Source: Rhodanobacter humi
GTDB taxonomy: Bacteria > Pseudomonadota > Gammaproteobacteria > Xanthomonadales > Rhodanobacteraceae
Reading direction: 5' to 3'
Assembly: GCF_041107455.1 (NCBI RefSeq)
Contig: NZ_JBGBPY010000001.1
Span: 2,356,001-2,420,000, forward strand
DNA length: 64,000 nucleotides
Shown here in pieces: positions 1-20,007 of this stretch. The position numbers and the translations under genes are program-made. The notes beneath the pieces are model-generated. The model was not told the origin of the DNA and did no database searches. It saw only the letters and a list, made by a program, of their open reading frames with translations. How positions within the stretch are numbered: the stretch's first letter is position 1; each line of letters begins with the position of its first letter.

Positions 1-3000
1 TGAAGAAGAACACGTGTTCCTGCTCGCCCAGCCGGAACAGCCGGGCGCGGAACAGCGGCGGCGTGGCCAGGTCGAACGGTTCGGCGATCAACGCGTCCAG
101 CCGGCGCCGCAGCCAGGCATCGCGTTCGTCTGCCGGCATGCCGGAGAGATCCTCGAGCGGCAGCTCCACCTCCAGTTCGGCGTGGATGCGCTGCATCGCG
201 CCCGTCGCGTCCGGCTCGATCGAGGTGCGCAGCACCGGCTGGCGGCGGACCATGGTGCGCAGCGCCTGCTCGAAGGCGGCGAGATCCAGCGATCCGCTCA
301 GGCGATGCGCCGACGGCGTGTGAAACGCCACGCCGCCGGGCCTGAGCTGTTCGAGGTACCACACGCGTTGCTGCATCAGCGACAGCGGCGCGCGTTCGCG
401 GTCAGCCAGGCGCGCGATCTGGCGCGGCTCCTGTTTGCCGGCTGCACCTGCCGCGCGTATCGCTGCCGCCAGCCGCGCCACGGTTGGCGCTTCGAACAGG
501 GTACGCAGCGACAGCGCCAGACCCAGCTCGCGATTGAGGCGCGCGGTGAGTTGCGCGGCGAGCAGAGAGTGCCCGCCGTGCTCGAAGAAGTCGTCGTCCA
601 GGCCCGGCTCCAGTCCACCCAGCACGGCCGCCATCGCCTGCGCGATCTGGCGCTCCAGTTCGTCGCGCGGCGCAGCGCGCGCGACGGCCGGCGCGGCGGC
701 GAGCGGCGCCGGCAGCCGGGCGCGGTCGATCTTGCCATTGGGTAGCAGTGGCAGCGCAGCCAGCACCACGAAGTGCTGCGGCAGCATGTATTCGGGCAGG
801 CGTTCGCGCAGGCGGCTGCGCAAGGCGGCCTCGTCCACCGGCGCTTCGCTCGCCAGATAGGCAACCAGGCGTGCGTCGCCCGGACGATCCTCGCGCACCA
901 TCACCAGGGCTTGCGTCACCGGCGGATGGCCGGCCAGCTGCGTCTCGATCTCGCCGGGTTCGATGCGGAAGCCGCGAAGCTTGATCTGGAAGTCGGCGCG
1001 GCCAAGGTGTTCGAGGGTGCCGTCGGCGCGCCAGCGGCCGCGGTCGCCGGTGCGGTAGAGCCGTGCACCGGGTTCGGCGGAGAACGGATCGGCGACGAAG
1101 CGCTCGGCGGTGAGCTCCGGCCGGTGCAGGTAGCCGAGCGCCACGCCCGCGCCGCCGATCCACAGCTCGCCCGGCACGCCCAGCGGACAGGGCTGGCGCC
1201 GTTCGTCCAGCACCCACACCGTGGTGTTCGCGATCGGCGTGCCGATGGTGATCGGCTGATCCGGCGCCACCTGGGCACAGGTCGACCACACCGTGGTCTC
1301 GGTGGGGCCGTACATGTTCCACAGCGCGCCGCAGCGTGCCCGCAGCGCGGTGGCCAGATCCGGCGCCAGCGCCTCGCCGCCGCACAGCGCGCGGAAGTCC
1401 GGGCCGCCTTGCCAGCCGGCCTGCAGCAGCATGCGCCAGCTGGCCGGCGTGGCCTGCATCAGCGTGATGCGGTGGCCGGCCAGCAGCGTCTTCAGTGCGT
1501 CGCCGTCCATCGCCTGCTCGCGCGTGGCCAGCACCACGCAGCCGCCCACGCCCAGCGGCCCGAGCAGTTCCAGCACCGCGATGTCGAAGGACAGCGTGGT
1601 GACGGCGAGCAGGCGGTCGTCGGCGCGTAGGCCGGGACGCTCGGCCATGCTGGCGAGGAAGTTCGCCACGGCGCGATGCGGGATCGCCACGCCCTTGGGC
1701 CGACCGGTGGAGCCGGAGGTATAGATCACGTAGGCGGTAGCCGCGGGATCGACGGACAGCGCGGGCGGCGTGACGGGCAGCGCGTCCCAGCCGGCGGGCG
1801 GTGCATCCAGCGCGATCGGCGGGCGGTCCGGCCGATCGAAGCGTGCGGCCAGCGACGCCTGGGTGAGCAGCACCGCCAGCTTGGCGTCGGCGACCATGTA
1901 GGCCAGCCGCTCGGCGGGGAAGGCGGGATCGAGCGGGACGTAGCCGGCGCCGGCCTTGAGCGTGCCGAGCAGAGCGGCGAGCATGGCGGGGCCGCGTTCG
2001 AGCGCGATGCCGACGAGGTCGCCGGGGTGGACGCCGTGCGCGATCAGGCCATGGGCGATGCGGTTGGCCTGCTCGTCCAGCGCGCGGTAGCTCAGTGTCT
2101 CGTCGCCGCAGCGCAGTGCGGGGCGCTCCGGTGAAGCAGACGCCTGGCGTTCGAACGCGCCGTGCATGGTCGACGGGCCGCTCCAATGACGCGCGGGCGG
2201 CTGCAGTCCGGCCAGCTCGCGCTGCGCCGCTGCGTCGACCAGCGGCAAGGCGCCGAGCGGATGGTCGGGCTGCGTCACGGCGGCGCGCAGCAAGGCCTCG
2301 TAGGCGCGCAGCCAGCGACGCACGGTGGCGGCATCGAACAGGCCGCTGTTGTACTGGCATTCCAGGCGCAGGCCACCATGTTCCTGCACCGCGTTGATGA
2401 ACAGTTCGAAGTTCTCGTAGCGGCGAGGCACGCTGGCGAAGTCCAGTCGCAGCCCAGGGAAGGCTTCGCCTTCCTGCTCCAGCGCCTGGTCGATGTTGAA
2501 CAGCACGCTGACCAGCGGCAGGCGAGCGGGATCGCGCGCGATGTCCAACTGCTGCAGCAGGCTGCCGAAGGTGCAGCGCTGGTGCTCCAACGCATCGAGC
2601 AGCTCGCCGCCCGCCGCGCCAAGCAGCTGCGTGAACGGCAGCGCCGGATCGGCCGTGCAGCGCAGCGGCAGCAGATTGACGCCGTGGCCGACCAGGTCGC
2701 CCAGACCTTCGTTCGCCTGCGCTGCGGCGGGGATGCCGAGCACGACTTCGTCCTGCCCGGCCAGCCGGCCGAGCAAGCCGGCGAAACTGCCCAGCAAGGT
2801 GGCGAACAGGCTTGCGCCGTGACGCGCGCCCAGGTGGCGCAAGGCGCCGACCAGGTCGGCGCCGAGCACATGATCCTCGCGGCCGGCAGCGAAGCTGCGC
2901 CGTGGCGGTCGCGGGCGGTCGCCCGGCAGGTCCAGCGCCGGTGGACGATGGGCGTGATGCGCTACCCACCAGGCCTCGTCGGCGGCGCGGGCGTGGCGGT

Positions 3001-3622
3001 CCGCCTGTCCGGCGCATTGCAAGGCGTAGTCGGCGAAGGAGGGGGCTGGCGGCAGGTTTGCGTTGCCGGCGCCGCTGCGCAACGCGTACAGCGTGCCCAG
3101 TTCGCGCAGGACCACCCACCACGACCAGCCGTCGCAGACCAGGTGGTGCGCGCTGAGCAGCAGCACGTGCTCGCCCTCGCCCAGGCGCAGCAGTTCGGCG
3201 CGGAACAGCGGTCCGGTTTCCAGGTCGAACGGCAGCAGCACGACTTGCGCGCGGCGCTCCTCCAGCGCGGCAATGCGCGTGGATGCATCGAGCGCGCCCA
3301 GGTCGGTCTGGCGCACGTCGAGCGCGACGCCGCCGGCCACGCAGAAGGTTTCGCCGTCCGGGCCGAAACTGGCGCGCAGCGCATCGTGGCGATCAACCAG
3401 CGCTTGCAGCGCGTCGAGCATGGCCGTGCGGTCCAGCGCGCCGTGCAGGTGCAGCGCGACCGCTTCGTTGTAGGCCAGCGAAGCGTCCTCACCCAGTTTG
3501 GCAGCCAGCCAGATTTCGCGCTGCGCCTCGGTGCTGGGCACCACGCGTTCGAGCGCGGGACTGGCGAACGGATCGTAGTCGACGGCCGAGAGGCCGGCAT
3601 GCGCGTCCATGGGCGTGTTCAT
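1..3622 (-). CDS. Nonribosomal peptide synthetase, C-A-PCP-C..., 3' end outside window
   Basis: Second megasynthase of the biosynthetic locus; the frame runs open from the ATG at 3622 past base 1, so the protein is C-terminally incomplete here. Domain order: condensation domain with the catalytic motif HHLVCDG at residues 159-165; adenylation domain with the A3 motif [11 protein letters not shown] starting at residue 634 and a YGPTETT motif; carrier domain with [11 protein letters not shown] (phosphopantetheine serine at residue 1019); then the first part of another condensation domain. Lining up the A-domain pocket by eye gives D-I-L-Q-L-G-M-V-W, which resembles glycine-type codes as I remember them; this substrate call is tentative. 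The start overlaps the stop of the upstream synthase (ATGA), so the two are probably translationally coupled. No thioesterase lies inside the window. Confidence 0.93.
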
Positions 3623-6600
3623 GACTCGACCTTCATGTACTTGCCCGGTTGCGCGGGGTTGGGCACGAACCAGCACGGCCGCCCGTCGGGTTCGCGGCCG
3701 AGCCGCGCGCCGGGCACGGGCGGCTTGCCCGCATCCATCACAGTCTGCGCCGGGGGAACGTTGCGCGGCAGGAAACCGGCTTCCTGCAACTCGGCCACCG
3801 AATCCTTGTAGGCCTGGGTGATCTTCTGGAAATCCGCCTCGCTGTGCGCGGTGGTGAAGAAGCAGGGGAAGTTGTCGAGGATGTGCACGCCGCGGCTGCG
3901 CATCATCGCGAACAGCAGATCCTGCAGCGGATGCTCCTCCAGGAACTGGGTCTTCCACAGCGACGCGAACTGCTTGACCGCGATCGGCGCGCCCACTTCC
4001 ACGAAGAAGCCGTTGAGCTCGTCGGCCATTGCCGCGGTGCGCGCATTGAGCCGTTCCTGCAGCGCGCCCCCGGCCTCGCGCACGTGCTCGAGCACCGCCT
4101 TCGCCGCGGCCAGCGCCAGCGGGTGGCGCACGAAGGTGCCGGCGAAATAAGTGACGCCCACGGTGGGGATCGAGTCGTCGCCGTACTGCCATTGGCCGCC
4201 GTCCAGCGCATCCATGTATTCGCGTTTGCCTGCGATCACCCCGATCGGATAGCCGCCGCCCACGACCTTGCCGTAGGTGGCGAGGTCGGCGCGGATATCG
4301 AACAGCGCTTGGGTGCCGCCGGGATGGCTGCGGAAGCCGGTGACGATCTCATCGAAGATGCACAAGGTGCCGGTGGCCGCGGTGATCGCACGCACCTCGC
4401 GCAGGAATTCGACCGGGCGGAAATCCGGCCGCCGGCTCTGCACCGGCTCGATCAGCACGGCGGCCAGTTCGTGCGCGCGTTCGCGGATGATTTCCAGCGA
4501 CTCCGGCGTGCCGTAGTCGAGCACCAGCACGTGTTCGGCGGTGTTGCGCAGGATGCCCGGCGCGGCCGGTACCGCGCGCAGCTTCTTGGTGCCGCGCACG
4601 ATCACTTCGTCCACGATGCCGTGGTAGGCACCGGTGAACAGCACCACGGTCTCGCGCCCGGTCACCGTGCGCGCGATGCGCAGCGCGCCCAGCACCGCCT
4701 CCGAGCCGGTGTTGCACAGTGCCGCGCGCTCATGCCCGGTGACTTCGCAGACCAGCTTTGCCACTTCGCCGGCCAGCGGATGCTGCGGGCCGATCTCGTA
4801 GCCGAGATCGAGCTGCCTGCGCACGGCATCCAGCACGAAATCTGGCTGCCAGCCGAACAGGCTCATGCCGAAGCCGTTCAGCGCGTCGACGTATTCGTTG
4901 CCGTCCAGGTCCCACAGGTGGGCGCCCTTGGAGCGCTCGATGACGGTCTGGTAGACGATTTCCTTAAGCAGGGGACGGAAGCCGTTGACCACGCGCGGGT
5001 CGGCCATGTGCGGGCGATGCGCCTGGGTGTACTCCTTCGATTTGCGCGTGCGCGCCACGTAGCGTTCGACGAAGCGGTCCAGCCGGCCTTGCTGGCGCGG
5101 CGTGAGCTCGAACTTGCCGGTGTCGATGCGCGCGATCGCGCCGAAGGCCTTCTTGACGTCGTAGCGGGTATGGGCCAGCGCGGCCTCTTCATCCACGACC
5201 GGAGCCGCGGTTGCGGCGGTTGCGGCGGGTGCTGGCGCGGCGGCCACGGGCGACGGCACGGCAGCCGGCGCCGCGACGCCGAGCAGGGCCAGTTGCTGGG
5301 CCATCAGTTGCATCTGCTGCGCGATCACCTGCTGCACGTAGCTGTGTGGCGCCGCGCCGGCCATGGCCGGCAGCGACGGCATCGCCAACGGCGTCGGTTG
5401 CAGCGGGGCGGGTGCCGCTGCCACGGCGGGCGCCTCAGGCGGAAGCTGCGCGTCGAGCAGCGCGGCCAGTTGCGCGAAGCTGGAGCAATCGCCCATCAGC
5501 TGACGGAAGCTCACCGGCACCGCGAAGGTCTTGGAAACCTGCAGCGCCACCTGGGTCAGCATCAGGCTGTCCAGACCCAGCTCGATGAAGTGGCTGGCGG
5601 GATCGGCGTCGGCCAGGTCGATGCCGGCGACATCCTCGAAGGTGGCCTTGAGCTGGCCGATCAGGCGCGGTTGGCGATCCACGGACGACACGGTTGGCGC
5701 GGACATGATGGGCGTTCCTTCGTGGTACTCGGACGTTGTGGCGGGTGGCAACGATGCGTGGACGCCCGATACCGCGGGCGCGTCGATCCAATGGCGTTGG
5801 CGTTCGAACGGATAGCTGGGCAGGCATACGCGCCGGCGCCGCGCGCGTCGGTCCAGCCGTGCGGCGTCGATGGCCGCACCCTGGCGCCACAGCTCGCCGA
5901 CGGCCTGGCGCAATTGCATCGGTTCCAGCTGAGGCGCGTCGCCGAGCGAGGGCAGGGCGGCGATGCGCTGCTGGCGCAGCAGCGGCTGCTGGCGCGCCAG
6001 CGAACACAGCGTGGCGCGCGGACCCACTTCCAGCAGCACGCGGGCAGGTCTGTCGAGCACGCGTTCGAGCGCGGTGGAGAAGCGCACCGGTTCGCGCAGG
6101 TGGCGCGTCCAGTAGTCGATCGACTGCGCCGCATCGTCGCCCAACCAGTTGCCGGTCGCGGTCGACACCAGCGGGATGCGCGGCGCCTGTCGTGACACGC
6201 GCTCCACTTCGGCACGGAACGGCGCCAGCACCGGTTCCATCATCGCCGAGTGGAAGGCGTGCGAGGTGCGCAGCGGGCGGCAGGCGACACCGTCCTTCTC
6301 CAGTGCCGCCTGCAGCGCGGCGACATCCGCGTGCGGTCCGGCCACCACGCAGGCGGCCGGTGCGTTTTCCACGGCCAGCGACAGCGTCGCCGACAGGCGC
6401 GCGAGCACATCCTCGCGCGGTAGCCGCACCGACAGCATTGCGCCTTCCGGCTGCGCCTGCATCAGCGCGCCGCGGCGGACGACGAGACGCATCGCGTCGC
6501 GCAGCTCGAACACGCCGGCCAGGGTCGCCGCGACGAACTCGCCGACGCTATGGCCGAGCATCGCCGCCGGTTGCACGCCCAGGCTCATCCACCATTGCGC

Positions 6601-9600
6601 CAGCGCGTATTCCATCGTGAAGATCGCCGGCTGCATCACCGCGGTGGGCAGCAGCGCCGCGGGATCGTCGCTCCACATGCGTTCGCGCAGGTCGAAGTCC
6701 ACCACCTCGCCGGCATGCGCCACGCAGGCGTCGAAAGCCTCGCGGAATGCCGACTCGGCGACATGCAGCGCGCGGCCCATGCCAGGGTAGGGCGAGCCCT
6801 GCCCAGGGAACAGGAACACCACGTCGGCCGGCTGGCTGGGGTGGCTGCGCACGCTGGCGGCGGCAACTTCGGCGAGGCGCAAGGCCGCCTCGGCCGCGTC
6901 GCCGGCCACTACTGCGGCGCGATGGGCGAAGGCCTTGCGGCCGACTGCCAGCGTCCAGGCCACGTCGGCGAGGTTCTCGCCGGGTTGCGTGCCCAGGTGT
7001 GCGGCCAGGCGTTCCGCCGTCGCGGCGAGCGCCGTCGGCGTGCGCGCCGACAACAGCAGCAACTGCGGCCCGTCGGCAGCATCGGAGGGTTCTTGTGCGG
7101 GGGCCTGCTCCATCACTACGTGTGCGTTGGTGCCGCCGACGCCGAACGAGCTGACGCCCGCGCGCAACGGCCCGTTGTCAGAGTGCCATTCCAGCAGGCG
7201 CGGGTTGACCATGAACGGCGAGCTGGCGAAATCGATACTCGGGTTGGGCGCGCGGAAATGCAGGGTCGGCGGGATCCGTTGCTCGGCCAGCGCGAACGCC
7301 GTCTTGATCACGCCCGCCACGCCGGCGGCGATCACCATGTGGCCGACATTGCTCTTGAGCGAGCCGACGTGGCAAAAGCCGATGTCGTTCGTATTGCGCC
7401 GGAACGCACTGACCAGCCCCTCGATCTCGATCGGATCGCCGATCGGAGTGGCCGTGCCGTGGGCTTCCACGTAACTGATGCTGCGCGCGTCGACGCCGGC
7501 GTCCGCCTGCGCCATGGCGATCACCGCGGCCTGCCCCGCGCTGCTCGGCGCCATGAAGCTGGCTTTGCCGCCGCCGTCGTTGTTCACCGCGCTGCCGCGG
7601 ATCAGCGCATAGACCGGATCGCCGTCGGCGATCGCATCGGACAGCCGCTTGAGCAGGACCACCGCGGCGCCGTCGCTGAACACCGTGCCCCGCGCGTCCG
7701 CGTCGAAACTGCGCGTGTGCCCGTCCGGCGAAAGCATGGTGCCTTCCTGGGCGAGATAGCCGCTGCGCGGCGGGCAGGTGATCGACGCGCCGCCGGCCAG
7801 CGCCATCGTGCAACGACCGGCGCGCAAGGCGTCGAAGGCCTGGCAGATCGCCACCAGCGACGTCGAGCAAGCGGTGTTCACGCTGACCGCCGGGCCGGTC
7901 AGGTCGAGTTTGTGCGCGACGCGGGTGGCCAGGAAGTCCTTTTCGTTGGCCAGCATCACCTGGAACGCGCCGAGCTTGTCGACCAGGTCCGGCCGCGCAC
8001 TGAGATGACGCTGGAAATAAGTGGCGTGGTACATGCCGCCGAACACGCCGACCGGTCCCGTGTGCGTTCCCGGCGCATGGCCCGCGCGCTCCAGGCATTC
8101 CCAGCACAGTTCGAGGAAGATCCGCTGCTGCGGGTCCATCAGCTCCGCCTCGCGCGGCGGGATGCCGAAGAACGCGGCGTCGAAGTTCTCCACGCCGTCG
8201 ACGATGCCGCGCGCGGCCACATAGGACGGGTCGTCGCGCTCCGCGCGCGCGATGCCCGGGTCGAGTTCGTCGGCGCCGAAGAAGGTGATCGATTCCTGGC
8301 CTTCGCACAGGTTGCGCCAGAACGCCTCGACGTTGTCCGCGCCGGGGAAGCGTCCGGCCATCGCGATGATCGCGATCGGCTCGGCATCGACGCCGTGCCC
8401 GCCGTGCGGCAGGCCGGACGCGGTGGGCGCGGTCCGCGTGTTTCCTGCCATCGCCTGCGCCAGCGCCGCCGGCGTGGGGTTCTGGAAGAACATCGGTATG
8501 GTCAGTTCGCGCGGCGCCAGCTCACCGAGCCGGGTGACCGCGCGCACGGCGGACAGCGAATCGCCGCCCAACTCGAAGAAGTTGTCGTCGCGGCCCACGC
8601 GGTCCAGTCCGAGCAGTTCGCCGAACACGGCGCATGCCTGCTGCTCCAGGGGGCCGACGGGTTCCACGTACGGCACGGCAAGTTCGGGCCGGCGGGAATC
8701 CGGCGCGGGCAGCGCGCGACGGTCGAGCTTGCCGTTGGTGGTCAGCGGCAGCGCATCGAGCTGCACATAGCATGCCGGCACCATGAACTCGGGCAGGCTG
8801 GTGCCGAGGTAGCCGCGCAGCGCCTGCGCAGTGGTCTCGACGCCGTTGCCTACGTAATAGGCGACCAGGCGCTTGCGGCCGGGCTGGTCTTCACGCGCCT
8901 GCACGGCGCAGGCGCCGATCGCGCGATGACGCGCCAGCACTGCCTCGATCTCGCCAGTCTCGATGCGGTAGCCGCGTATCTTGACCTGGCCATCGATGCG
9001 GCCGACGAATTCGATGGCGCCGTCCGGCAGGTAGCGCACCAGATCGCCGGTGCGATACAGGCGTTCGCCCGCGGCGCCGAATGGATCGGGCACGAAACGT
9101 TCGGCGCTCAGTTCGGGACGCCGCAGGTAGCCGCGCGCGACGCCGGCCCCGCCCACGAACAATTCGCCGACGACGCCGGTAGGCAGCAGCTCCATGCGCC
9201 GGTTCAGCACATAGAGCCGCGTGTCAGCGATGGGCCGCCCGATCGGAATCGTGCGCGCGTCGGCTGCTAGGTCGCGCGGTATGCGATGGGTGGTGGTGAA
9301 TGTCGTGCATTCGGTCGGGCCGTACGGATGGACGATGGTCGTGCCGGGCAGCGCATCCAGCGCCCGGCGCACGTGCCGTACGGAGACCTTCTCGCCGCCG
9401 GTGAACAGTTCACGCAGCCCGGTCAGGTGCCGGGGGTCGACATCCACGATGGCATTGAACAGCGCCGTGGTGAGGAAGGCCGTGCTGACGTTGTGCCGCG
9501 TGATACTGCGGGCGAGGCCGCTGCCGGTTGGTACTGCTTCGTCGTGCACGATGACGCAACCGCCATTGAGCAGGGCGCCCCAGATCTCCAGCGTGGAGGC

Positions 9601-10824
9601 ATCGAAGCCCAGCGGCGCTGCGTGCAACAGCCGTGTGTCGAGCCCCAGATCGATGTATTCGACGTCACGTACCAGGCGGATGATGGAACGGTGCCGGATC
9701 TCGACGCCCTTCGGCGTGCCAGTCGATCCCGAGGTGTACATCACGTAGGCCAGTGCTTCGCCGTCGAGCCGGATGGGGTCGGGTGCGATGGCGCCGGGAT
9801 CGCCGGGCTGTTCCCCGGCGGCGACGGAAACGCGCACGATCGCATCGGCGAGCGGCAGCGCCCGCGCGATGCGCGGGGTCACCACGATGCGTACTTCGGC
9901 ATCGTCGAGCATGAAAGCCACACGCTCTGCCGGGTAGGCCATGTCGAGCGGCAGGTAGGCGGCGCCCGCTTTCAGTACGCCGAGGATGGCGACCACCGCG
10001 TCGACGGAGCGATCCAGCATCACGCCCACGATCGTGCCCTGCGCGACGCCGGCATCGCGCAGGCGCAACGCCAGCGCCGTCGCCAGCCGGTCCAGTTGCG
10101 CGTAGGTCAGGTTGCGCTGGTCGTCGATGACCGCGATCCGGTCCGCATGCTCCCTGGCGGTGGCGGCGAACAGGCCGTCTACCGTGTCGGCGGCATGGCG
10201 CGGCACGTCCGTCGCATTCCATTCGACCAGCAGCCGGCGACGCTCGGCCGGATCGAGAATGTCGATCGATTCCAGTGCGCAGTCGGTTGCCGATGCGCAT
10301 GCCGCGAGCGCGCGTGCCACGCAGCCTGCAAGCAGGTCGACCGTTGCCGCATCCGGCGAGCCGCGAAAATCGACTTGCAATTGCGCGTCGCCCGCCAGGC
10401 GCAGTCGCCACGCCAGCTGCACAGATACGTCGCCGCAGGCGGCCGCCGCCTCGCCGTCGTGGGCGAGCCATGCGCTGGCCGCTGGGGCATCCGCCGGTGC
10501 GCGGAACGTGTGCGCGCAGGTTTCGAGCCAGGCGTCGCGCGATCCCGTGCGCGGTACCTCGATGGAACCCTGGGCGACGCCGCTTGCCCCCGACACCGTG
10601 GCAAGCACGGCGTCCGCCCCGGTCAGGCGCGATTCGACCAGCGCCAAGGTCGCGCCCAGCAGTTGCGCGGGAGTGGTCGGCCTCCGGCGCATGGCATCGC
10701 CCAGCGCGGCGGCGAGCGCGGGACCGAGCGGATACTGCCGGTGCCGCCATGCGTCATCCGCGCCATCGGCCTGGCCAGGCAGCACGTCGAGCAAATCCAT
10801 GTTTTGCGTATCGCCCAGCGTCAT
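3619..10824 (-). CDS. Hybrid NRPS/type I PKS with built-in aminotransferase
   Basis: A 2401-residue assembly-line enzyme. Order: a remnant of a condensation domain lacking HHxxxDG (about residues 1-190); adenylation domain ([18 protein letters not shown]); carrier protein (GGDSL, serine 756); ketosynthase with active Cys 986 in NTACSTS plus [12 protein letters not shown] and KSNVGH; acyltransferase with GHSVGE (serine 1426) and HAFHS, the malonyl-type signature; acyl carrier protein (LGLDSL, serine 1753); an Ala/Pro-rich linker; and a class III PLP aminotransferase with the lysine in YGKVVGGG (residue 2186). No ketoreductase or dehydratase lies between AT and ACP, so the beta-ketone should persist for transamination, as in mycosubtilin/iturin AMT modules. 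By-eye A-domain pocket D-A-L-F-F-G-P-T-F suggests a hydrophobic amino acid, low confidence. Start: ATG 10824 begins the recognisable protein; ATG 10918, overlapping the upstream gene, is an alternative. Confidence 0.93.
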
Positions 10825-10888
10825 AACTGCATACTCATTGAACTTGCCCTGTGCGCCTGCCGGCGATCGAGGCGGCCAGCCTGCCGGC

Positions 10889-11803
10889 TCAATCGTCTGA
10901 GGCGTAGGGCGCTCCATCGAAACGGACAGGCCGGCCCAGCCGATGGCGCGCGTACCTGCGCGCGCCATCCGCGGCATGCGCTGCGACATGCAGCCACGCA
11001 TCGAAGCGGGGACGCCGACCGACCGGAGGCAAGTCGATCCCCAGGCCGTGCATCCGGTCGTGCACGACGTGCAGCAACACATTGCGACGCGATGCCTCGG
11101 TGTTGTAACTGAGGCTCAGCGTCGTCGACGGCTCGTCGCTGGTCTCGACCATGTGCGGGCTGGTCAGCGGCATGTACACGCCCATGCCGGGCTGCAGGTG
11201 GAATACATGTGCGCGGGCGCGGAATTCCTCGTGCCACTCGACCAAGGCAAGCTCGCGATGGCCGTGGAACCAGTCGCGCGCGCGGTCGCTCACCACCGTG
11301 GTGTCGTCGGGATCCCATACATAGACGGTCTTGCTGCCGCGCACCTGCAGCAGAATGCCGTGGTTGCGGTCGATGTGGAACGGCGTGACCGTGTGCGGCG
11401 AGGACACGAAAATCCAGCCGGCCCGGTAGCACATGCCGGGGTCCTTTTGTTCGACCTGCGGTTTGATTTCATCGAGCACGGAATCGACAAGCCCGCGGTA
11501 AGCCGGATCGCCCTGCACATGACGAAGCAACATCCATGCCTTGGCATGGGCGATGTCCTGAAGAGTCTCCTGCGCAGACTTGCGGTTCGGATTCGTGTTT
11601 CCCGCTTCGCTGAAATTGGTGCCGGCGGTGACATCGTTGCTGAACGAGTAGAGCTGTGCCGCGCGCTCAAGGCGGCGACCGAATTCCACTAGCCGGGCTG
11701 GCTGTAGCAACGGGTGCTCCATCAATCGGTGTCGCACCGCTTGGACATGCCACGGATCGAACGCGTCCCAATCGATGTCCATGCAATTCGGTCGCTGGCT
11801 CAT
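10889..11803 (-). CDS. Cupin/JmjC-like Fe(II) oxygenase, probable tailoring enzyme
   Basis: A 304-residue protein resembling the cupin-8/JmjC hydroxylase group of Fe(II)/2-oxoglutarate enzymes. The expected metal triad is visible: H143 and D145 in PFHIDRNHG and H217 in TSPHMVE, with the double-stranded beta-helix core between. A basic residue for 2-oxoglutarate was not assigned. It ends 64 bases before the NRPS/PKS start on the same strand, so it is probably the first gene of that operon and a candidate hydroxylase for a carrier-bound amino acid or the finished product. A GGGGA stretch precedes the ATG; a second ATG seven codons in (MDIDWDAF) is possible. Substrate unknown; a regulatory role of JmjC type is unlikely given the context. 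Confidence 0.8.
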
Positions 11804-11958: not shown

Positions 11959-13035
11959 ATGGAAATGCACGACGTCGTATTCGACGATCGCTACGAGACG
12001 GTCGAGGGCCACCTCGAACGGGATCGCGACACCGTGATCGGCCTCTGGCGCGGCCAGATCGGCTGGCGGGACCAGCTCGACCGGATGTATGACGTGTTCT
12101 ACCTGGGCTGTCCGTTCAGGCAACCGCGGTTGCAACTGCTGCGTCATCGCGCCAGCGGCGAGATCGTGGGCACCGTCGGCGTGGGTCCGCGACCCATGCT
12201 GTGGCAGGGACGCGAACGGCTGGCCGGCGTCGCCAGCCATTTCGTGGTGCTGCCGGCGCATCGCTCGCTCAAGCCCGCGACCCTGCTGGCGCGGGCCATG
12301 GCCGCCATCTGCCTGGAGCATTTCGCGTTCGGCTACGCCATGACCAACGCCCGCGGCGGCGCGGTCTGCAAGCGTGCGGGTTTCGCGGTGCCCGCGCAGC
12401 TGTCCCGGCACGTGCGCGTGCTGCGCTATCGCGAGTACATGACGCGTGTGCTGCCCGGTCCGCTCGGTCGCGCCGGCGGCGCGCTGCTGGACGCTGCGCT
12501 CGCTGCCAGCCGGCACCTGCCTCTGCCGGGGCGCCGCGCCGCCCTGCACGTGGCCTGGACGGATGCCGTCGATCCCCGCATGCAGGTGTTGTGGGAGCAG
12601 TCCGAGCATGGCGAGGGCCTGTGCACGGTGCGCAGCACGCAGATACTCGAGTGGCGCTTCCTCGGCCTGCCCGCGGTACGCCGCCGCTTCCTGCTGGTCG
12701 CCCCGGCGTCGGGCGCGCCGTTGCTGGCGTGGTTCGCCTGCGAGACCAACGTGCGCGCACCCGGGCTCATGACCGTGACCGACGCCTGGTTCGCCGGCGG
12801 CGTGCGCACGGCCGACCGCCGTGCGATCCGCGAGCTGTGCCGGATGGGCTACGCGGCCGGCTACGACGCGATCGAGCTGCGCCTGACGGCCGCCCGGCCC
12901 GTGCTCGATGCGTGGCACGCCGAGGGTTTCGTCACGCGCGGCCGGCAACCGTTCTTCGTGCACGGCATGGACGCACGCCGCGACGGTGACGTCGGCATCG
13001 GCCTGCACATCACCGACATCGAGCAGGATGGTTGA
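11959..13035 (+). CDS. GNAT-like acyltransferase, exopolysaccharide-associated
   Basis: A 358-residue protein. The N-terminal half has the look of a GNAT fold (residues about 50-110, a GEIVGTVGVGPR strand followed by a helix starting near AHRSLKP), and the C-terminal part looks like a second, degenerate GNAT half ending in FHGMD-like strands. I recognise the type from capsule/exopolysaccharide clusters, but acceptor and donor are unknown. Start chosen at ATG 11959, preceded by CGGAG; the open frame continues upstream but that stretch is low-quality and overlaps the divergent oxygenase gene. It is transcribed divergently from the NRPS locus and convergently to the heparinase-like gene, so it could belong to either cluster. 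Confidence 0.7.
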   Translation: MEMHDVVFDDRYETVEGHLERDRDTVIGLWRGQIGWRDQLDRMYDVFYLGCPFRQPRLQLLRHRASGEIVGTVGVGPRPMLWQGRERLAGVASHFVVLPAHRSLKPATLLARAMAAICLEHFAFGYAMTNARGGAVCKRAGFAVPAQLSRHVRVLRYREYMTRVLPGPLGRAGGALLDAALAASRHLPLPGRRAALHVAWTDAVDPRMQVLWEQSEHGEGLCTVRSTQILEWRFLGLPAVRRRFLLVAPASGAPLLAWFACETNVRAPGLMTVTDAWFAGGVRTADRRAIRELCRMGYAAGYDAIELRLTAARPVLDAWHAEGFVTRGRQPFFVHGMDARRDGDVGIGLHITDIEQDG

Positions 13036-13073: not shown

Positions 13074-15884
13074 TCATCCCGTATACGGCCTGGGATAGCC
13101 GGATACCGGCCGGTTGGACACCGGTGGCGGCCGCAGTGTCGGCTGCTGCACGCTGCCGCCGCTCACCGTGAAGCTGAGTACGCCGTGCACGCTGCTCATG
13201 GTGGAGCCGCCCGGAGTCACCGTGATGGTCTGCTGGTTGCCGTTGGTCGCGACGTTCACGGTGTAGCCGGTCGACGGCGCCAGGTCGGTGATCACGTGCA
13301 GCGCGGCAAGGTTGTCGACGGTGTAGCCGATCGTGCCGCTCAGCGGCGTGCCGGCCGCACCCGTGCTGCTGACCACCACCGCACTGCCGTCCGATGCCGC
13401 CAGCTGCACGCCGAGGATGCCGCCCTGGGCGACGATCACCGGCTTCGCGCCGGCCACCGTGGATGACGCGGTGGACAGGTCGAACACGGTCAGCCATTGC
13501 TGGCTGGCGCCCGCGACCGGCGAGCGCACCTGCACCTGCCATGCCTTGGTCGGGTTGCTGGACGGGTACATCGCCGTGGTGGACAGCGTGGCGTTCTGCG
13601 GCAGCACGGTGGTCATCGCGCCGGCGTAGCTGCCGCCATAGGTGATGTCGAGGCGGTTACCGCCGGTACTGGTGGTGCTGGAGGCCGGATTCGCCGGGAA
13701 ATGCCAGGCCAGGTACTGGTCGTAGCTCGCGCTGCCCGCCGTGGTGCGGTCGTAGACCACGAAGCGGTTGGGCCGCACGTACACGATCTCGCGCGACCAG
13801 TTGGTCACGGCCGGCCCGGCGGCGAAGCGGCGGTACATGTCCTGCAGACCGGTCGCCAGCACGTAGACGTAGCTGCTGCCGTCCTCGAACGCGGCGACTT
13901 TGGTGCTGGCCTGGTTGCTTTCGGTGGTGCTGGCGAACTGGCCGTACTGCTCGGCCGGCGCGCCGTTGCTCAGGTTGCGCACGTAGAAGATGTTGTAGAT
14001 CTGGCGGTTGCCCGAGTAGACGTTGCCGCTGCTGAAGCTGCCGTAGTTGTCGTTGTAGACCAGGTTCTCGTCGGCGGTGCCGTTGGGGTTGTGCACCAGC
14101 CAGCCGGTGGCGTTGAGCAGCAGCGGCGTGCCGCCGCGCACCAGGGCCAGGCTGCCCTGGTCGAAGTATTCCTCGCCCTGCCCGGGGTTGTTCGCGTAGG
14201 GCGCGGCGCGGAAGGACATCCAGGCGGCACTGTTGCCCCAGTCCGAGCGCGCCGCGACCGCGCCCAGGCCCGGCGCGAAATACGACAGCGGCAAGCCGCT
14301 CACCGGCGCCGTCGTGCCGGCCGGGTCCAGCGAAAGGAAGCGCAGCCACTCGTCCGCGTAACCGTAGCCGCTGGTGGCCGCGTCCACGTCGGCCAGGTAC
14401 TGGCGGAAGATCGCGGTGTGCGGCGAGCCCCAGTAGCCGAGCGCGCCGAGCAGTTGCTGGAACAGGCCCACCTGGGTCGTGCCCGGCGGCTGGCTGTCGG
14501 AGTTCGAATGGTTGGTGTCGCGGTCATCGAAATAGGTACGAGAGGGCCAGGTGAAGTGCATCGCGTACTCGGCGCTGTCCGTCGGATAGCTGTACGGTGC
14601 GCTGGCGTGCACCAGGTCCTGGCCGGTGGCGGTTTTCACCTCGCGCATGGGCAGGGTCATGTTGAGGATGCCCAGCGGCGCGTAGTTGGCGTAACCCTCC
14701 GGCCAGCCGCCGCCCAGCAGGTGCAGCTGGTAGTACGGCTGCACGCGCTTGGCGAACTGGTTGTTCAGCCAGTCGTCCCATTCCGCCGGCCCCGAGGGGT
14801 TCTCGTCGTAGGTGGCCAGCGCGATGGCGGCCTTGGCGTGGAAGTAGCCCGCGTAGTAGTTGCTCTGCGGATGCGCGTACTCGAAATCGGCGCAGCCGTT
14901 CGGCGCCTCCCAGGCGGTGATCCAGGCGTTCGCGGTGGTGTAGACCTGCGTGCGCTGGGTCGGCGTGAGCAGGTCCCAGACCCAGTCGTAGCCCAGGCCC
15001 ATGCCGACGCCGTAGAAGCGCATGCCGTAGCCGCTGTCGGTGCAGGGCGGCTGGCCCTGGCTGCCGGAGGCGGACATCTTCATCAGGATGTCCACGGCCT
15101 TGGCGCCATAGCTGGCGGCCGCCGAGGCGTTGCTGGTCTTGAGCACCTGGTAGCACATGCCCTCGGCCAGCAGCGCGGGCACGTAGTCGCTGCCTTGGTA
15201 GCCCTGGCCGAGGTTGGGCAGGTTCGGGTAAGCGTTGCCCGAGGGATATTCGACCGTGCCGCCGATGTAGGAGTCGCACTTGGCCTTCAGCGCCGTCCAT
15301 TGCGGATTGGAGGAGGTGGCCCGCTGGCGCAGCGCGGCCAGCGTGGTGCCGTCCAGGATCAGGCGCGGATGCGGCGCCAGCGTCACGGCGGCCAGCGCCC
15401 GCACCCCGAAGGCGGCCGGCGTGGGCGTGGAAGCGGGTGCGCCGTGCGCAGGCGGCGTCACCCGGGCATCCACCAAGGCCAGCACGTGCGCGGGCTTGCA
15501 GGGGGCGACGCCGGCTTCGCAAGGCAGGTCCTGGTGCATCCACGCCAGGCTCTCCGAGGACAGCTGCACGGCGGCGGCGACATCCGGCGTGGCTCGCGCC
15601 GCTTGCATCACCGGCGCGGCGGGTGCGGGCTGCTCGGGCGCCTCTGCGACGGGAGTCGGTGCGGGGGAGACGTCTGGTTCCGCTGTCCGGACCGCGGCGG
15701 CTGTCGTCGTCGGGCTGGCCGGCAGCGGCGCCACGCGTTCGTTGCGGATGCGCACGATCGCTTGTGCCATCACCACAGCTGCCAGCAGGGCCGCGACTGC
15801 GGCCAGCATCGCGCGCCAGCGCCAGTGGCGACGGCGGCGCTGGACAGAAGTGTCCGGGTGACCCGGCAAGCTTCGGCTCGGCAT
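13074..15884 (-). CDS. Exported heparinase II/III-like (polysaccharide lyase-type) protein
   Basis: A 936-residue protein with a basic N-terminus followed by one hydrophobic segment (about residues 25-45), consistent with an uncleaved signal anchor or signal peptide. An Ala/Pro-rich linker precedes an alpha/alpha-toroid-like region (about 180-520: HPRLILDG, GYDWVWDLL, YAHPQSNYYAGYFH) and a beta-rich heparinase II/III-like region (about 560-900: GEEYFDQGSLALVRGG, VYDRTT). This layout is that of alginate/heparin-type lyases. It lies 55 bases after the sugar transferase on the same strand, so it probably turns over or trims the polysaccharide made by this cluster. Catalytic residues could not be fixed by eye. 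Start: ATG 15884 (MPSRSL). Confidence 0.75.
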   Translation of the reverse strand: MPSRSLPGHPDTSVQRRRRHWRWRAMLAAVAALLAAVVMAQAIVRIRNERVAPLPASPTTTAAAVRTAEPDVSPAPTPVAEAPEQPAPAAPVMQAARATPDVAAAVQLSSESLAWMHQDLPCEAGVAPCKPAHVLALVDARVTPPAHGAPASTPTPAAFGVRALAAVTLAPHPRLILDGTTLAALRQRATSSNPQWTALKAKCDSYIGGTVEYPSGNAYPNLPNLGQGYQGSDYVPALLAEGMCYQVLKTSNASAAASYGAKAVDILMKMSASGSQGQPPCTDSGYGMRFYGVGMGLGYDWVWDLLTPTQRTQVYTTANAWITAWEAPNGCADFEYAHPQSNYYAGYFHAKAAIALATYDENPSGPAEWDDWLNNQFAKRVQPYYQLHLLGGGWPEGYANYAPLGILNMTLPMREVKTATGQDLVHASAPYSYPTDSAEYAMHFTWPSRTYFDDRDTNHSNSDSQPPGTTQVGLFQQLLGALGYWGSPHTAIFRQYLADVDAATSGYGYADEWLRFLSLDPAGTTAPVSGLPLSYFAPGLGAVAARSDWGNSAAWMSFRAAPYANNPGQGEEYFDQGSLALVRGGTPLLLNATGWLVHNPNGTADENLVYNDNYGSFSSGNVYSGNRQIYNIFYVRNLSNGAPAEQYGQFASTTESNQASTKVAAFEDGSSYVYVLATGLQDMYRRFAAGPAVTNWSREIVYVRPNRFVVYDRTTAGSASYDQYLAWHFPANPASSTTSTGGNRLDITYGGSYAGAMTTVLPQNATLSTTAMYPSSNPTKAWQVQVRSPVAGASQQWLTVFDLSTASSTVAGAKPVIVAQGGILGVQLAASDGSAVVVSSTGAAGTPLSGTIGYTVDNLAALHVITDLAPSTGYTVNVATNGNQQTITVTPGGSTMSSVHGVLSFTVSGGSVQQPTLRPPPVSNRPVSGYPRPYTG

Positions 15885-15939: not shown

Positions 15940-17325
15940 TCAGCGTGCACCGCGACGGAACAACACCACCTCGACCGTCTGGATCAGTATCAGCAGGTCG
16001 AACAGCAGGTTGTTGTTCTTGACGTAATAGAGGTCGTACTTGAGTTTCTCGGCGGCGTCGTCCTCCGACGCGCCGTAGGGGTAGCGCAGCTGCGCCCAGC
16101 CGGCCAAGCCCGGCTTGAGGCAGTGGCGCAGGTTGTAGTAGCTGATTTTCTGCGCGAGATCGGCGACGAACTGCGGCCGCTCGGGCCGTGGGCCGATGAA
16201 GCTCATCTCGCCCTTCAGCACGTTCCACAGCTGCGGCAGCTCGTCCAGCCGCACCTTGCGGATGAAGCAGCCGACGCGGGTCACGCGGTCGTCGTTCTTG
16301 GCCGCCCAGCGCGCCACGCCGTCGCATTCGGCGTCCGTGCGCATGCTGCGGAACTTGATCAGCCAGAAGGTGCGGCCGCGCACGCCCACGCGTTCCTGGC
16401 GGTACAGGATGGGCTGGCCCGGGCCGGATTCGAGATGAATGGCCAATGCCGTCAGCAGCATCAGCGGCCAGGTCAGCGCCAGCACCAGCAGCGCCGCGGC
16501 GAGGTCGAAACAGCGCTTGCTGAGCCGGCGCATCGGCGAGGCGTAGAAGCCGCCCGAGTAGACCAGCCAGGAGGGATACGTCAACGCCAGCTGCACACGG
16601 CCGGATTCGCGCTCGAAGAAGGTGGTGAGGTCGGTCACCTCGATGCCCAGCTGCCGGCATTCGAGCAACTCGTCCATCATCAGGCTGCCGCGGCGATCGT
16701 CGACGCCGACCACGATCTCGTCGATGCCGTGTCGTTCGGCCCAGACGTCCAGCGGCGCATCGGGCGTGACCAGCAGTTCCACGGGCACGTCGACGGCCTC
16801 GCCCGGGCGGGGCACGAAACCGACCACCACGAAGCCGCGCCGGTCGGAGCGGCGGCGCATGCGGCTGTGGATCTGCGACGCGCGCGTGCCGCCGCCGAGG
16901 ATCAGGATGCGCCGCTTGAACGCCTCCACCTCGACCAGCTGCAGGAACGCCGCGCGGAACGCGGTGACCGCCACGAAGCCGAGCGCCAGCGCGATGCCCA
17001 GCACGCCGCGGCCCACGTAGGCCTTCGGCAGCACGTAATAGGCCACGACCAGACCCAGTCCGCCGAGCGCGAAACCGACCGCCTGGCGCGCCAGCAGGCC
17101 GAACCAGGTCGCGCGCATGTGCGCCTGATACTGGCCCATCGCCGCCAGGCCGAGCACCAGCACTCCGGCGAACATCAGCGAACGCGCGGGCAGGTGGCTC
17201 AGTTCGTCGATGCTGCCGAAGCGCACCCAGATGGCGATGCTCAACGACGCGCAAAGCAGAAGCATTTCGGCCACGGCCAGCAGAATCAGCCAGCGCGTGG
17301 ACTGTCGGTGCATGAAGCGCAACAT
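15940..17325 (-). CDS. Undecaprenyl-phosphate sugar transferase (EpsB/WcaJ type)
   Basis: A 461-residue polyprenyl-phosphate hexose-1-phosphate transferase that starts lipid-linked repeat-unit assembly for an exopolysaccharide. It has several N-terminal membrane helices (about residues 8-130), a CoA-binding-like central domain (RRILILGGGTRASQI), another helix, and the C-terminal bacterial sugar transferase domain with RQERVGVRGRTF, KFRSM, VRLDELPQLWNVLKGEMS and GPRPERP, including the catalytic Asp-Glu pair. The length fits the PEP-CTERM/EpsH-associated EpsB-2 type. Start ATG 17325 follows a strong purine-rich site (GGGGGAGAGGG). The frame is open upstream, but that stretch is the promoter region with a CRP-like site. 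The heparinase-like gene follows in the same operon. Confidence 0.93.
   Translation of the reverse strand: MLRFMHRQSTRWLILLAVAEMLLLCASLSIAIWVRFGSIDELSHLPARSLMFAGVLVLGLAAMGQYQAHMRATWFGLLARQAVGFALGGLGLVVAYYVLPKAYVGRGVLGIALALGFVAVTAFRAAFLQLVEVEAFKRRILILGGGTRASQIHSRMRRRSDRRGFVVVGFVPRPGEAVDVPVELLVTPDAPLDVWAERHGIDEIVVGVDDRRGSLMMDELLECRQLGIEVTDLTTFFERESGRVQLALTYPSWLVYSGGFYASPMRRLSKRCFDLAAALLVLALTWPLMLLTALAIHLESGPGQPILYRQERVGVRGRTFWLIKFRSMRTDAECDGVARWAAKNDDRVTRVGCFIRKVRLDELPQLWNVLKGEMSFIGPRPERPQFVADLAQKISYYNLRHCLKPGLAGWAQLRYPYGASEDDAAEKLKYDLYYVKNNNLLFDLLILIQTVEVVLFRRGAR

Positions 17326-17677: not shown

Positions 17678-20007
<2,330 letters not shown>

Follow-up and report, generated by a model that had tools for sequence, protein, structure and literature searches.

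What is a hybrid assembly-line gene, predicted to build a diamino acid, doing among genes for a surface polysaccharide? The gene in question, PKS1, lies in a stretch of 64,000 nucleotides (positions 2,356,001 to 2,420,000 of contig NZ_JBGBPY010000001.1; hereafter, the window, whose numbering is used throughout) from the 4.15 Mb genome of Rhodanobacter humi. It combines parts of a nonribosomal peptide synthetase (NRPS) and a polyketide synthase (PKS), and the line that it begins is embedded in an exopolysaccharide (EPS) locus of the Wzx/Wzy type. Our best explanation, which in our judgement could be right or wrong with equal ease, is that PKS1 opens, as its starter protein, a nonribosomal line dedicated to the EPS, and that the diaminoacyl-oligoglycine peptide of this line is made for the polysaccharide and probably attached to it.

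PKS1 encodes one protein of 2,401 aa on the minus strand (3619-10824), within an enclosing open reading frame (ORF) of 2,487 aa (3619-11082); the start at 10824 was also picked by a codon-usage gene caller. On the 2,487-aa ORF, Pfam lists in order AMP-binding (E=9.1e-87), AMP-binding_C, PP-binding, the N- and C-terminal ketoacyl-synthase families with ketosynthase-acyltransferase (KS-AT) linkers, Acyl_transf_1 (4e-50), a second PP-binding and Aminotran_3 (2.3e-43), and no ketoreductase (KR), dehydratase, enoylreductase, thioesterase (TE) or condensation (C) family. A sequence-only reading of this DNA had proposed the order adenylation (A), peptidyl carrier protein (PCP), KS, AT, acyl carrier protein (ACP), aminotransferase (AMT), without a KR, and the Pfam hits, the gene call and the intact motifs agree with it. 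The KS Cys, AT Ser, ACP Ser, AMT Asp and AMT Lys are each kept in 71 of 71 aligned proteins (our own and 70 relatives), and an inactive AMT site, which was looked for, is not indicated by this conserved catalytic lysine. The AT had been read as malonyl-type, which is borne out by the motif HAFH, present in every printed AT pattern (these cover 58 of the 71 rows) and taken by us to mark malonyl specificity. The spacing from AT to ACP is 75-135 aa in all 73 relatives with the four domains in one ORF, too short to leave room for a KR between them, and no KR was seen among the annotated genes of the locus. The starter had been assigned to an adenylation domain: the PKS1 A domain (A1) is of the amino-acid type (TIGR01733, 433.5 bits; cut-off, 317.4), and in all 72 A1 domains read the code has Asp in first and Lys in last place, residues that we assume to be amino-acid anchors, so that loading of a non-amino acid is not indicated. 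The approximately 190 residues preceding the A domain are common to relatives; their interpretation as half of a C domain was rejected (blastp against the C domains of the locus, best E=3.1). The domain order of PKS1 is found again across gamma- and betaproteobacteria and is, therefore, not a product of chance. Scanning the window for Rfam families and tRNA genes gave no hits.

The closest solved relative of the PKS1 aminotransferase is MycA (6kfm, E=5.2e-127, 450 residues aligned), in keeping with the mycosubtilin type proposed for it. Read as chemistry, the A domain would load a hydrophobic, Val-like amino acid (codes for Val, Pro or Thr in relatives), KS and AT would add a single malonate-derived C2 unit, and the MycA-type aminotransferase would convert the beta-ketone to an amine, yielding a beta,gamma-diamino acyl-ACP. 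One extension of an amino-acyl unit followed by amination is what the sequence-only reading had envisaged, and it is consistent with every sequence test; its treatment of the gene as stand-alone did not hold, as the gene is part of an EPS locus and the line is longer than had been seen, continuing into a second protein, NRPS2. The beta,gamma-diamino acyl unit is thus the best reading of the PKS1 product. Alternatively, the aminotransferase could miss the ketone, or a KR acting in trans could reduce it, giving a gamma-amino-beta-hydroxy (statine-like) or a tetramic acid. As a matter of general chemistry, beta-ketoacyl thioesters that bear a free gamma-amine are able to cyclise, and a KR borrowed from fatty-acid synthesis is compatible with the sequence. 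We consider this outcome very improbable, given the invariant active-site residues of the aminotransferase, the lack of a KR among the genes seen in the locus, and two distant relatives (G037 and G067, with 55% and 56% aminotransferase identity) in which Pfam places the aminotransferase behind KS-AT-ACP as well.

Among 72 A1 codes (our own and 71 relatives), 52 are Val-type, 10 Pro-type and 3 Thr-type, while DALFFGPTFK, the code of our own protein, and DILIIGGIMK occur three times each and DAFFLGVTFK once. The Val, Pro and Thr assignments follow the Stachelhaus code, and our own code is presumably Val-like or hydrophobic. Variation in the starter may be matched by a tailoring gene located upstream of PKS1, which encodes an Fe(II)/2-oxoglutarate oxygenase. 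Its H-x-D...H triad is invariant in 33 aligned sequences, and its structure model (pLDDT, predicted local distance difference test, 92.5) has FIH/NO66-type folds among the best matches. Among relatives with at least 2.5 kb ahead of the PKS1 ORF, 39 of 54 Val-like loci and 2 of 3 Thr loci carry the oxygenase, and none of the 9 Pro or the 3 DILIIGGIMK loci does (Val-like versus Pro, Fisher 5.5e-5, uncorrected for relatedness). This suggests that it may hydroxylate the starter-derived part of the product, although relatedness alone could give the pattern.

The start of NRPS2, a protein of 2,131 aa, overlaps the PKS1 stop by 4 bases, and NRPS3 (1,057 aa, C-A-PCP) comes after NRPS2, outside the window. 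Both NRPS2 A codes are DILQLGMVWK, and the three A codes beyond the starter in this genome are all of the DILQ type, which we take to specify glycine; NRPS2, and possibly NRPS3, would therefore append glycine. In relatives, the first NRPS2 A domain (A2) and intact copies of the second (A3) are mostly DILQ-type too. A3 is intact in 28 of 73 NRPS2 proteins, degenerate in 19 and missing from the other 26, a classification in which L057, L058, L063 and L105 were placed after a TE rescan and most other rows come from our own domain scan rather than from Pfam. The second NRPS2 module retains its C and PCP domains (L035-L114), with the C motif HHxxxDG present in 71 of 73 proteins, and the last NRPS2 carrier may be charged in trans. 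An exact repeat of 1,232 bases links the two glycine A domains of NRPS2 (window 941-2172, and 2353791-2355022 of contig C1, equivalent to window -2209 to -978), and in the close sister loci L035 and L037 the protein identity within the gene is likewise 83-85%; this looks like gene conversion, or an assembly effect. In genome G224, a 3,532-aa member with extra C-A-PCP modules lies near Wza, Wzz, EpsB and hydrolase 2 (L130), which suggests longer peptides in other lineages.

The genes that follow NRPS3 on the same strand encode a family 2 glycosyltransferase, Wzy, Wzx, a PaaK-like adenylating enzyme, three family 4 glycosyltransferases with a NodB-like deacetylase among them, and a 400-aa protein. 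A converging plus-strand set encodes Wza, Wzz, a tyrosine kinase related to TIGR03018, a beta-barrel protein and two alpha/beta hydrolases related to hydr2_PEP and hydr1_PEP (hydrolases 2 and 1). Flippase, polymerase, Wzz, Wza and the initiating transferase EpsB are, thus, all found in one locus, as in Wzx/Wzy-dependent EPS synthesis. XrtA/PEP-CTERM EPS loci (PMC1569441) have a similar set, with EpsB of the TIGR03013 family, a tyrosine kinase, Wza/Wzz, a deacetylase and relatives of both hydrolases; the R. humi genome differs in having a nonribosomal line and no exosortase.

The association between line and EPS locus was assessed in 233 genomes of the family, using thresholds of E≤1e-60 for the aminotransferase, E≤1e-80 for EpsB and E≤1e-10 for exosortase. 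The aminotransferase was detected in 104 genomes and EpsB in 137, each EpsB-positive genome giving one EpsB match. EpsB was present in 99 of the 104 aminotransferase genomes and missing from 5. In 82 genomes both genes were on one contig, separated by a median of 11.6 kb and by less than 30 kb in 81 (the exception is G015); in 17 they were on different contigs. Exosortase was found in 20 genomes, all of them EpsB-positive and none with the line (Fisher 6.5e-14 among EpsB genomes, uncorrected for relatedness), and 18 EpsB genomes had neither. PF09721 gave no match in our own genome even at E=0.001, nor in any of the 104 aminotransferase genomes at E=1e-10. The only exosortase typed by NCBIfam, that of G194, is XrtA. 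We rejected a replacement event as the reading of this exclusion, which may simply reflect two locus types.

A scan of named genomes, restricted to the best 80 of 579 stretches encoding an aminotransferase relative, placed such loci in Rhodanobacter, Frateuria, Dyella, Luteibacter, Lysobacter, Luteimonas, Pseudoxanthomonas, Variovorax, Ideonella, Xenophilus, Thiomonas and others, the nearest being that of Rhodanobacter sp. C06 (L035; aminotransferase 99% identical). The order A-PCP-KS-AT-ACP-AMT is kept in the named copies not cut by a contig end, with the frame of L070 split over three ORFs. An EPS gene of our locus is found in 62 of the 74 named loci of at least 12 kb, and either such a gene or a hydrolase gene in 71; L088, L096 and L104 have neither. 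The distant members G037 and G067 have a separate A-PCP plus KS-AT-ACP-AMT-C-A-PCP, an order that we take to be close to that of McyE. Read by eye, the last A code is Gly-type in both, and the starter code of G037, on the free-standing A-PCP, is Pro-type. G067 has the same EPS gene set as R. humi, and its line overlaps by 4 bases the start of the next gene, a relative of our own glycosyltransferase gene.

Three of the 18 EpsB genomes with neither line nor exosortase were read. G165 carries a close twin of the EPS operon (L127-L128) with no PKS or NRPS gene in the stretch read, and is a natural comparison strain. In G019, an AMP-ligase (TIGR03098-like, below cut-off), an NAD synthase-like protein and a relative of the 358-aa protein of our locus are encoded in a row near EpsB (L123:10204-13753), perhaps a small version of the same idea. 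In the stretch of G016 that was read, EpsB is the only gene shared with our locus.

No TE was found in PKS1, NRPS2 or NRPS3 of R. humi. Across 73 NRPS2 proteins (our own and 72 relatives), a TE in cis is present in 6, a fused hydrolase-2-like domain follows the last PCP in 4, and 63 have neither. The statement that no relative has a TE had to be rejected, as Pfam finds one in L105 and L057 and the rescan raised the count to six; the arrangement is PCP-TE-PCP in L057, L058 and L063, and PCP-TE-PCP-TE in L105. In all four loci with the fusion (L052, L053, L056 and L059), a gene for hydrolase 1 follows. With each protein assigned to the better-matching family, hydrolase 1 has a Cys at the nucleophile elbow and a catalytic His in 30 of 30 aligned rows, and the nucleophile position of hydrolase 2 is occupied by Arg in 25 of 27 proteins, by Gln in our own and by Gly in one. 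Hydrolase 2 would, thus, be a conserved family member that lacks catalytic function and is paired with a partner of the Cys type. The tyrosine kinase and both hydrolases of R. humi score below the NCBIfam cut-offs (hydr1_PEP, E=3.4e-22, 79 bits against 168; hydr2_PEP, E=7.2e-21, 75 against 203).

The six thioesterases fit the release of a free peptide, and one alternative is a small diffusible diaminoacyl-glycine peptide (a signal, metal chelator or antibiotic) that is hydrolytically released and merely co-located with the EPS genes. The occurrence of the EPS operon without the line in G165, and starter and second residues that vary among relatives as they do in secreted metabolites, also favour this view. 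We nevertheless find it unlikely: line and EpsB are neighbours in nearly every genome with both on one contig, glycosyltransferase, polymerase and flippase genes follow the line on the same strand (with the gene overlap in G067), and no peptide exporter, receptor or resistance gene was seen among the annotated genes of the locus. Another alternative emerges from the C-termini of the NRPS2 proteins that lack a TE, in which the last 20 residues have a net charge of at least +3 in 58 of 67, including the four fused ones. Such basic tails could bind the membrane, and the peptide could serve as a terminal cap or anchor, placed on the lipid carrier or at the reducing end, instead of decorating every repeat; the PKS-like RkpA system of the rhizobial K antigen offers a parallel in logic. 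The exclusion between the surface-anchoring exosortase (20 genomes) and the line (99), found together in 0 of 137 EpsB genomes, points the same way. That exclusion may, however, mean no more than two whole-locus types, given the single EpsB match per positive genome, and no lipid-forming domain was found in PKS1, NRPS2 or NRPS3; we regard a terminal role as decidedly improbable.

Returning to a peptide made for the polysaccharide itself, most members lack a TE, and the peptide would accordingly wait on the last carrier, to be offloaded by hydrolase 1 as the catalyst with hydrolase 2 as its carrier-docking partner. A Cys nucleophile in such folds often favours acyl transfer, and for this reason we infer that attachment to a sugar would fit better than plain release. 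The likeliest acceptor would be an amine of the EPS repeat unit that the polysaccharide deacetylase of the locus has freed, and transfer to the lipid-linked repeat unit would precede Wzx export and Wzy polymerisation. In a broader form, which we advance only tentatively and think somewhat more apt to fail than to hold, a widespread EPS would bear a nonribosomal beta,gamma-diaminoacyl-glycine peptide, moved from the last carrier to a lipid-linked sugar by Cys-type hydrolase 1 under the guidance of the nucleophile-less hydrolase 2, both being related to the exosortase-A-associated hydrolases. EpsB loci would then be of two kinds, one operating together with proteins sorted by exosortase and the other making its own peptide.

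Several observations weigh against our best explanation, besides the six ordinary thioesterases. No sugar-acting acyltransferase was identified, and the structure model of a candidate, the 358-aa protein, is unusable (pLDDT 37). The two hydrolase genes of R. humi lie at the distant end of the locus and are transcribed in the opposite direction. The HHxxxDG motif of the NRPS3 C domain is broken (HELVLDR), and the frequent absence or degeneration of A3 makes the peptide length uncertain. G165 has the EPS operon and no synthetase, and the polymer as such therefore does not require the line. Finally, the genome counts represent related genomes and not independent events.

Mycosubtilin and iturin synthetases end in a cyclising thioesterase; this and their fatty-acid starter, loaded by a fatty acyl-AMP ligase (FAAL), have no match here. 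Our protein shares with the MycA/McyE kind a class III aminotransferase placed behind KS-AT-ACP on a single chain, with MycA homology and an intact lysine for pyridoxal phosphate (PLP). According to PMC4219810, MycA, ItuA and BamA likewise join a PKS module to a class III aminotransferase that aminates the beta carbon, followed by NRPS modules, but they start from a fatty acyl group supplied by an FAAL, whereas here an A domain supplies an amino acid, 67 of 73 NRPS2 proteins have no TE in cis and the line lies within an EPS locus. The same source describes PuwE of the puwainaphycins, which also has a non-reducing PKS module before an aminotransferase and an NRPS module, and differs in its fatty-acid starter, its fused monooxygenase and a cyclic lipopeptide released at the end of the line. 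McyE and NdaF of microcystin and nodularin (PMC2885083) are hybrid PKS-aminotransferase-NRPS proteins whose aminotransferase makes a beta-amino acid (Adda); their substrate is a long phenyl polyketide, methylated and reduced, in contrast to the single unreduced amino-acid extension proposed here. The parts of the line are, thus, of known kinds. The amino-acid-primed arrangement inside EPS loci is what appears new, no description of it having been found in searches of open-access literature, which misses most subscription journals.

Table 1. Features of the PKS1 region, in window coordinates.
Feature	Position	Strand	Basis or remark
NRPS2, N-terminal part; C-A-PCP-C-A-PCP, no TE	1..3622	-	continues ~2.8 kb left of the window
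PKS1 hybrid synthetase, A-PCP-KS-AT-ACP-aminotransferase, 2401 aa	3619..10824	-	Pfam, codon-usage call, alignment
PKS1 class III PLP aminotransferase, MycA type; Lys in a motif of 12 residues	3760..5109	-	Pfam, MycA structure match, alignment
PKS1 ACP, LGLDSL	5455..5655	-	Pfam, alignment
PKS1 acyltransferase, GHSVGEF and SHAFHS	5992..6819	-	Pfam, alignment
PKS1 ketosynthase, NTACSTS, a motif of 12 residues, KSNVGH	7255..8382	-	Pfam, alignment
PKS1 PCP, LGGDSLS	8440..8652 (approximate limits)	-	Pfam, alignment
PKS1 A domain, code DALFFGPTFK	8728..10170	-	Pfam, residues 305-785 of the ORF protein; code via alignment
Cupin_8/JmjC-type Fe(II)/2-oxoglutarate oxygenase, upstream of PKS1	10889..11803 (called start 11689; ORF to 11803)	-	invariant triad, model
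358-aa protein, weak GNAT match (E 0.014)	11959..13035	+	relative two genes from AMP-ligase in another EpsB locus
911-aa protein, weak heparinase II/III-like match (E 0.013)	13074..15809	-	present in several sister EPS loci
EpsB, TIGR03013 initiating sugar transferase of XrtA/PEP-CTERM-type EPS loci	15940..17325	-	548.7 bits, cut-off 393.35
NAD-dependent sugar epimerase/dehydratase	17678..18733	-	annotation
UDP-glucose/GDP-mannose dehydrogenase	18730..20007	-	annotation

Among the neighbouring genes (Table 1), the 911-aa protein has a hydrophobic N-terminus, judged by eye, and is encoded beside EpsB in several genomes; it is possibly a lyase of the polysaccharide. Sequence searches of the PDB with the 400-aa protein and with the oxygenase gave no matches.

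If attachment of the peptide is correct, the locus would join assembly-line peptides and surface polysaccharides, two fields that seldom meet. It would provide a testable substrate for the hydrolase 1 and 2 families of exosortase loci, and it would suggest a way for this conserved line to work in spite of the 63 of 73 NRPS2 proteins that carry no thioesterase and no fused hydrolase. It would also point to a family of beta,gamma-diamino acids derived from Val, Pro and Thr, whose positive charge would alter the binding of a biofilm polymer to surfaces and to metals.

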